From contig OMWE01000001.1 of NCBI GenBank assembly GCA_900314685.1, forward strand, positions 1-64,000: DNA of 64,000 nt. The letters run 5' to 3'. This document shows positions 10,241-54,572 of the stretch, in pieces; within the stretch, counting starts at the first letter, position 1, and each line of letters starts with the position of its first letter. The translations under genes were made by a program, and so were the position numbers. The notes beneath the pieces are model-generated. The model saw only the letters and a list, made by a program, of their open reading frames with translations. It was not told where the DNA came from and ran no database searches. Origin of the DNA: an uncultured Actinomycetes bacterium. GTDB taxonomy: Bacteria; Actinomycetota; Coriobacteriia; Coriobacteriales; Atopobiaceae.

Positions 10241-10467
10241 ACCCTGACTTTACATTTCGACCTTTTTGTTGCAAAGCCCGATTACGACTCGTGCTAAAAC
10301 CCCAGCTAAATGACTCAATCTTTGGGGCAGGCAAATCCAGGCGTTTTGCCGCACACGACACGTTTGCAAAAGTGCAGGTAGATAGGCTGCAGCTGCAGCC
10401 GGACAGGCAGGAACAGCCGAAAAAATGATAGGGTTGCAACAAAAAGGTCAAAATGTAAAGTCAGGGT
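10241..10467. repeat. MITE-like element 1: 227 bp with 34-bp inverted termini
   Basis: The termini 10241-10274 and 10434-10467 are inverted copies with one mismatch; both end toward the outside in ACCCTGACTTTACATTT and toward the inside in GACCTTTTTGTTGCAA. The interior has no credible gene but holds an AAAAGTGCAGGTAGATAGGCTG motif (about 10368-10389) that recurs in element 2. No target-site duplication is clear. Folded as RNA or cruciform DNA it would form a 34-bp stem. It lies between the rpiR-like and DJ-1 genes. Mobile miniature element or structured RNA are both possible. Confidence 0.7.
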
Positions 10468-15301: not shown

Positions 15302-15529
15302 GACCCCTCTTCGAAGATATGACCTTTTTGAGTCATTTTCGCGATCAGATGCCTCTGAAAAGATGCAGGTAGAATGGCTGTCGTCAAAACCCGAGAAATA
15401 CGGCATCCTACATGTTATTTCATTACTTATACATGCAGGTAAATCGGCTGTACTCAGTGACTGATTTGCTCAAAATCAGTCAGATATCATCTCAATGACT
15501 CAAAAGGGTCATATCTTCGAAGAGGGGTC
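15302..15529. repeat. MITE-like element 2: 228 bp with 36-bp inverted termini
   Basis: The termini 15302-15337 and 15494-15529 are inverted copies with one mismatch: outward GACCCCTCTTCGAAGATAT, inward GACCTTTTTGAGTCATT (the right copy reads GACCC). Length is within 1 bp of element 1. The interior contains AAAAGATGCAGGTAGAATGGCTG (near 15357-15379) and ATGCAGGTAAATCGGCTG (near 15431-15448), variants of the motif in element 1, and the inner arm shares GACCTTTTTG with it. It lies downstream of the predicted nuclease gene and upstream of the GntR operon. No open frame of note. Confidence 0.72.
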
Positions 15530-41091: not shown

Positions 41092-41163
41092 GTGCCGCTC
41101 CTCCCCGCTTTTGTGTGCGTGATGGGAAGTCTACGGGCGTCCGCGCGTGTCAATCCGCTCTTT

Positions 41164-41203
41164 CTCAGTTTGGCTTGCCGCAAACTGGCAGGCAGCTGGC
41201 GGT
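41164..41203 (-). promoter_or_regulatory. Conserved 40-bp block upstream of paralogue A
   Basis: The plus-strand sequence starts CTCAGTTTGGCTTGCCGCAA and continues through ACTGGCAGGCAGCTGGCGGT. It lies 73 bp before the gene start and matches 43156-43195 with 3 differences in 40. It includes the short palindrome TTGCCGCAA. A shared operator or leader element is likely. Confidence 0.6.
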
Positions 41204-41366
41204 ACGCTTGCAATGTTAGCCGGCAGAGTTTTCAACATGGGTTTTATCTGCGGGAATACGGGGCAATTACAAGCGTTGGCAATCGCTTGCACAGCCGCCC
41301 CTTCAAGACGGACCCTCGGTGGCAACCGTTCGCCGCCGAAACCAGACCGTCTACCCCCGATTTTCG

Positions 41367-43087: not shown

Positions 43088-43155
43088 ACCTGTCTCCTTT
43101 CGCCGTTTCGCGTGCGAGAAGGATAAGGACAGTCGCCACAGATATTTTCGACAAT

Positions 43156-43195
43156 CTCAATTTGACTTGCCGCAAACTGGCATGCAGCTGGCGGT
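43156..43195 (-). promoter_or_regulatory. Conserved 40-bp block upstream of paralogue B
   Basis: This is the second copy of the block, 69 bp before the gene start, starting CTCAATTTGACTTGCCGCAA. Between it and the helicase start (43391) the gap 43196-43390 holds a TATGAT near 43348 as a possible -10 for the helicase gene and no further gene. Confidence 0.6.
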
Positions 43196-43390
43196 TGGCT
43201 GATAGGCTCTCTACCAGCGCGTTTGTCTTTGCGATATGTGCCATGGGAAGCCCTGTGCCAGTCTGGCGGCAGACGCGGTCTCCCTACCTGCGGCGCGTGC
43301 AGTCTGCCGTGCAGACGGTCGTCTCTGCGACGCAAACGGCGCAAGGTGCGTATGATGGAAGGGAAAAACGGCGAAGAGGGACAAAGACGC

Positions 43391-54190: not shown

Positions 54191-54403
54191 CTACCCTTTC
54201 GACGTCCCCAGGCCGGCAGCTCCGCCGATCCCGACCAGTACCTTCTGTACGTCTTCCCAGCTGACCTGGTATTTGACCCCACACTCGCGCACCGGGGTCC
54301 TCGCTTCGGATGCCGCGCGCACCCCCACTGCTAACCCTCTCGCCCGCGAGGCCGGATGCCTCTCATCTGACGGGCGGTGCGACTTGCCTCTAGGACGAGC
54401 CAT
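54191..54403 (-). CDS. Possible small ORF overlapping the binding-protein leader
   Basis: A 70-codon frame starts at ATG 54403 and ends 3 bp before the binding-protein ATG, so its TAG lies in the next gene's ribosome site. The ATG sits in the loop of a small CGAGC/GCTCG hairpin. The N-terminal half is arginine-rich and unlike known families, so coding is doubtful. A perfect hairpin GACGGCCG/CGGCCGTC (54468-54486) lies upstream. The remaining gap 54404-54572 holds no other gene. It may be a leader peptide or non-coding. Confidence 0.2.
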   Translation of the reverse strand: MARPRGKSHRPSDERHPASRARGLAVGVRAASEARTPVRECGVKYQVSWEDVQKVLVGIGGAAGLGTSKG

Positions 54404-54572
54404 GCTCGCCCGGGTACGCGCACCCGGACTTACGTGGATCCTTTTGACCTCGTCTGCCCTGGACTAAGACGGCCGTGGCGGCCGTCCGCAACCACAGACC
54501 TGGAAAGACATGTCAGCAGTATACCAGCTAGGGGGTTTGCCGTGCGCTTGAGCAGGCCAGTCTCCGCAAGCA

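Follow-up and report, generated by a model that had tools for sequence, protein, structure and literature searches.

A family of dispersed intergenic elements with covarying inverted arms and a persistent core in the Atopobiaceae

Architecture of the two elements and their copies

The window, a 64,000-nucleotide stretch of contig OMWE01000001.1 from an uncultured member of the Atopobiaceae, contains two related elements bounded by inverted arms. Element 2 is located 21 bp past the stop codon of an unassigned 420-aa open reading frame and 249 bp upstream of a gene for a GntR-family regulator, whereas element 1 is flanked by genes for an RpiR-family regulator and a DJ-1/PfpI protein. The features are as follows:

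15302..15529, plus strand: element 2 (subfamily B), 228 bp; orientation taken from its GCAGGTA motifs
15302..15337, plus strand: left arm of element 2, with related units GACCCCTCTT and GACCTTTTTG spaced 19 bp apart
15494..15529, minus strand: right arm of element 2, with 35/36 positions complementary to the left arm
15364..15379, plus strand: first copy of the core motif in element 2, TGCAGGTAGAATGGCT
15434..15449, plus strand: second copy of the core motif in element 2, TGCAGGTAAATCGGCT, 70 bp past the first
10241..10467, plus strand: element 1 (subfamily A), 227 bp, of the same family as element 2
10241..10274, plus strand: left arm of element 1
10434..10467, minus strand: right arm of element 1
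10373..10388, plus strand: core motif of element 1, TGCAGGTAGATAGGCT, with a degenerate first copy ~70 bp upstream

The initial annotation described element 2 as having 36-bp arms with one mismatch, and this is confirmed: its 36-nt arms are 97% complementary and lie 156 nt apart. As single-stranded DNA, the element folds with −57.7 kcal/mol compared with −21.9 ± 3.5 kcal/mol for shuffled sequences (z −10.3), a value that none of 200 shuffles equalled. The arms of element 1 are 34 nt long, also 97% complementary and separated by 159 nt. Within the window, the paired-arm pattern matches only elements 1 and 2, and it is absent from 100 shuffles. The proposed shared architecture of the 227-bp and 228-bp elements extends to many more copies in the genome. 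The TGCAGGTA..GGCT motif is present twice in element 2 (15364 and 15434), as had been noted, whereas the single copy described for element 1 (10373) is accompanied by the degenerate form CCAGCTAAATGAC, which, when aligned with other copies, coincides in position with the first of the two element 2 motifs. Each element thus has a pair of directly oriented motifs ~70 bp apart. The termini, previously regarded as different, are so only in part, since both elements start with (G)ACCC and share GACCYTTTTG further inward. Similarly, the sequence reported as shared at the inner arm ends is indeed a common decamer, but the sole arm mismatch of element 2 falls within it (left GACCTTTTTG, right GACCCTTTTG). 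Elsewhere in the window, a 46-nt direct repeat (41163–41208 and 43155–43200; 89% identity, 2 kb separation) and a raiA RNA (54252–54508, minus strand; Rfam RF03072, 154 bits) are observed.

Searches with elements 1 and 2 identified 22 full copies in the genome (15 type A, 7 type B) and one truncated type B copy. All full copies are 227–230 bp long, and all arm matches found in the genome pair as ~228-bp elements, one of them truncated; none of the arm matches belongs to an autonomous copy in this draft genome (91% complete). The arms are kept within each subfamily and the interiors are not, with a mean column identity of 67% overall. Pairwise divergence of the interiors reaches 0.42–0.48 with 0.007–0.016 gap openings per substitution, counts that may be too low at such divergence, although the equal interior lengths (155–158 bp) hold independently of them. 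A third family, C, comprises six copies with 60–70-bp arms built from inverted 21-bp units (GGACTC..ACGC, innermost GGACAC). Arm units recur at 19 bp in A, B and the copies of a second genus genome (G004), at 21 bp in C and at 22 bp in two further loci (L257, L258). Among 30 loci with callable flanking genes, the copies are intergenic apart from two overlaps with predicted gene ends, and the surrounding genes are convergent in 8, divergent in 7 and tandem in 15 cases, with mixed element orientation relative to tandem neighbours. No match to element 2 was found in plasmid and phage collections.

Arm covariation points to processes at the DNA level

Covariation between the two arms is real. Subfamily A displays 7 matched double arm changes, compared with ~0.5 expected, and the copies of two other genus genomes (G001 and G002) display 10, compared with ~1.4 expected; the counts for B and G004 are higher still, but register shifts at the outer end inflate them in part. 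The initial annotation named a lack of compensatory arm changes in other copies as a refuting outcome; matched double changes are instead seen in excess of the expectation under independence. The further suggestion that the element is more than a simple decaying transposon copy is supported, and the two arms of a copy do change together. By contrast, the covariation alone does not establish the proposed selection on RNA pairing, because a DNA hairpin or terminal repeat, gene conversion between arms or copies (with one case in G002) and quasi-palindrome correction all predict the same pattern.

Although covarying arms would be expected of a structured noncoding RNA, as put forward initially, the remaining observations make such an RNA highly improbable. 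Arm mismatches on the core strand comprise 31 G.T compared with 62 A.C cells (22 and 31 distinct, respectively), and this lack of a G.T excess gives no sign of RNA pairing on that strand. While the A.C excess would suit an RNA transcribed from the opposite strand, it is non-significant at distinct sites. Relative to shuffled sequences, the interior shows no excess folding stability on either strand (mean z −0.42, n = 40); the interiors of subfamily A do tend to negative z values on both strands, which can be ascribed to a central palindrome. In one type C copy (L285), inspected by eye, the right-arm units match the left-arm units in a different, unmirrored order. At the Rfam gathering score no match was found at the element, the raiA RNA being the only one in the window, and the mixed orientation relative to genes also disfavours an RNA gene. 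Taken together, the missing G-U preference, the lack of a folding signal in the interior and the unmirrored C units indicate that the covariation points to DNA-level processes. The other option raised at the outset, a cruciform or single-stranded DNA hairpin, may apply, and by its behaviour the element is better described as a miniature mobile element of DNA than as a gene for an RNA.

Distribution of arms and core and turnover of copies

A covariance model built from the 22 copies recovered the family in four of five genus genomes, including that of the window. In the three other genomes with copies (~10 in G004, ~7 in G002 and 3 in G001), out of four examined, the element carries species-specific but still self-complementary arms, and nearly all copies are 227–230 bp long. 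The arms in G001 and G002, for example, are ACCCCTATTCGCTCTGACG..GCGCCATT, which replace the A or B arms. The exact paired-arm pattern had zero matches among 84,980 species genomes (the window's own genome perhaps excluded), as expected for species-specific arms. A scan with the core pattern gave 90 matches, of which two lie in members of the genus (Atopobium sp. oral taxon 810 F0209 and RUG078) and the others are expected to be mostly chance.

The core, (TGCAAAAGC)GCAGGTAGATGG, is found across the Atopobiaceae, often enclosed by inverted repeats of quite different sequence, and the covariance model also finds shorter single-core elements with unrelated arms in the wider family. When up to three mismatches are allowed, 83 of the 140 Atopobiaceae genomes contain the motif TGCAAAAGCGCAGGTAGATGG, and its reversed control gave very few matches; a second family of the order has ~1.3 motif copies per genome (by hand count 83 in 62 genomes, with 3 in the control). 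The core occurs singly, duplicated in direct orientation (in the genus of the window and in G061) or inverted (L243, L256, L244). At 30 motif-selected loci, 5 of 31 core matches are enclosed by a strong inverted repeat, compared with 4 of 116 control positions, so that many core copies outside the genus do not lie in armed elements. We tentatively raise the possibility, which we consider doubtful, that armed-core DNA elements form an order-level class in the Coriobacteriales, with a fixed 12–21-nt core, interchangeable inverted arrays of 19–22-bp sites and fixed spacing. Such a class would have undergone repeated replacement of its end specificity while the core machinery stayed, and could represent a new modular-end transposition or recombination system or a new nucleoprotein loop element.

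The core was also encountered in other settings. In several Atopobiaceae, GCAGGTAGATGG forms one side of terminator-like hairpins directly 3′ of tRNA genes (L288, L294, L298, L299, L300), and in two genera the motif adjoins the upstream end of an apparent TPP riboswitch in reverse orientation (L241, L235). A core module of ~94 bp is duplicated in tandem at L221 in G071, resembling a mosaic repeat array. A 37-nt spacer of a CRISPR array in G040 (L245) matches the core exactly over 18 nt (AAAAGCGCAGGTAGATGG), which suggests that the core was once present on CRISPR-targeted DNA. Four of five viral matches to the 18-mer represent one near-identical sequence unlike the element, apparently a single viral gene, and were rejected. 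A peptide-coding core was also rejected, its codon third positions being constant and its first positions variable, as judged by eye.

No target-site duplication was detected, the identity of abutting flanks being that expected by chance for 2–11 bp. The flanks can pair as a stem of at least 6 bp in 6 of 39 copies, compared with 1.5 expected (P = 0.0045), which suggests insertion into hairpin loops; one copy, for example, resides in the loop of a GCTGTCGG/CCGACAGC hairpin. Although long terminal inverted repeats, dispersed copies and the absence of coding capacity are reminiscent of a conventional DDE-transposon MITE whose copies have been decaying since an earlier burst, we regard this origin as very unlikely given that target-site duplications are missing even statistically, that the arms are strongly conserved per subfamily whereas interiors diverge by 42–48% at invariant length, and that the core is common to families with unrelated ends.

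Comparison of orthologous sites reveals one case of replacement. In G001, the elements E1 and E2 are in direct orientation and 77% identical, whereas E1 of G002 is the reverse complement of E2 at 230 of 230 bases, the two copies lying 1.6 kb apart. The flanks of E1 in G002 are still orthologous to those of E1 in G001, which has the opposite orientation, indicating that the neighbouring element overwrote E1 end to end and in flipped orientation. Gene conversion via the inverted arms, or transposition or exchange, would account for this replacement. A locus that is oppositely oriented in two species, with an interior equal to the inverted neighbouring copy, would also fit invertible cassettes, whose interior is inverted or swapped between the arms by a site-specific recombinase, as in invertons or shufflons. 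However, the case is single and explicable by gene conversion, the two further ortholog pairs compared retain their orientation and no promoter logic has been established for the interior, which leaves such cassettes very improbable.

Most copies in the window's genome whose site can be located in G004 have no counterpart there. Several G004 sites lack the element, but the orthologous intergenic regions are too diverged for the junction to be read, and no clean empty site was found. One ortholog pair (C44 in the window's genome and C60 in G004) is 93% identical over the element compared with 80% in the left-hand gene, as might be expected for a DNA element that the host retains for an architectural or regulatory role, with one protein on the arrays of 19–22-bp units, a second factor on the core and a spacer that sets the loop phase (a domain boundary, silencer, origin-like or partition-like site). 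The constant length despite varying sequence, the unit spacing of about two helical turns and the conservation of arms relative to interiors are in line with such a role. We nevertheless consider it unlikely, since copies occur whatever the arrangement of the neighbouring genes and are seldom shared between species, the other ortholog pair evolves as its surroundings do (88% over the element compared with 87–94%), and the presence of several unrelated arm types in one genome would require several dedicated proteins.

Comparison with known repeats and a candidate mobilizing enzyme

REPINs are REP doublets that form hairpins and are mobilized by RAYT Y1 transposases; their inverted ends are conserved, their spacer is less so although its length is important, and compensatory changes are frequent (PMC3116915). 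The element described here shares with REPINs the inverted conserved ends, the variable spacer of held length, the compensatory changes, the intergenic location, the species-specific ends with several types per genome and the lack of target-site duplication. It differs in its size (228 bp compared with ~100 bp), in its copy number (tens rather than hundreds) and in its arms, which exceed REPs in length, consist of 36–70 bp of repeated units and, as read from the A and B sequences, are not palindromic. It also contains a conserved internal core, which is not a described feature of REPINs. Both a RAYT and REP-type ends (a short palindrome with a GTAG-type tag) were looked for: the genus has no RAYT, and GTAG lies within the internal core in direct orientation. 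For these reasons the element is not classed as a REPIN.

The Y1 transposase domain PF01797 is present in 95 of 140 genomes of the family, in many cases within RAYT-like proteins of 250–320 aa, but in none of the five genus genomes, two of which are 98–99% complete. RAYT/TIRYT-like Y1 transposase genes with flanking palindromes, several of them containing GGGGAC, were observed in Atopobiaceae (L314, L315, L319–L321, L328, L330). TIRYTs and TIRtrons are families of terminal repeats, and the GGGGWSAS motif carried by TIRYT families (PMC3733652) is fitted by these GGGGAC palindromes. The element resembles TIRYTs and TIRtrons in its long inverted repeats, moderate abundance and dimers, and the inner B arm resembles one of the palindromes beside the RAYT-like genes of sister genera: TGACTCAAAAGGGT agrees at 12 of 14 bases with those next to a RAYT-like gene in G104, which none of 200 shuffles equalled. 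We take this likeness as a hint of ancestry, not as proof; a 14/14 agreement in G136 is circular because the arm pattern itself served to retrieve the locus. Unlike in TIRYTs and TIRtrons, no transposase gene bounded by element arms was found, and the RAYT-like loci inspected in sister genera lack the core, with no core-and-arm element on either side. The element is also similar to BOX and ERIC repeats in being short, dispersed, palindromic and modular, including the tandem duplication of the core module in G071 and G061. Compared with BOX and ERIC repeats as described, however, the armed-core elements stand out in that entire ends are exchanged from one species or subfamily to the next, whereas a short core is retained.

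Element 2 is probably one copy of a non-autonomous, dispersed intergenic miniature DNA element, similar to REPINs or TIR dimers, as suggested by the many copies, the two to three arm subfamilies per genome and the constant length despite divergence of the interior. Such an element would consist of two inverted arms, each of ~2 (at most 3–4) related 19–22-bp units, flanking a spacer of fixed length with one or two copies of the conserved GCAGGTAGATGG core. Copies may spread and keep their arms matched by way of a DNA intermediate that is single-stranded or folded into a hairpin, in line with proposals for REPINs, by arm-mediated gene conversion, or by both. The enzyme would be a transposase of Y1 or other type, either lost from the genus or unrecognized. 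The fixed spacing suggests that arms and core are read jointly by a protein complex on the DNA.

No published account of this element family was found in the literature searched, where it appears to be undescribed. Dispersed palindromic repeats are usually recognized by their conserved ends, whereas here the ends vary and a short core persists, and covarying arms of a bacterial repeat need not signify a structured RNA. In the armed-core family, recognition of the ends is separable from recognition of the core, and the series of species-matched arms provides natural material for testing both the movement of the element and the proteins that bind it.
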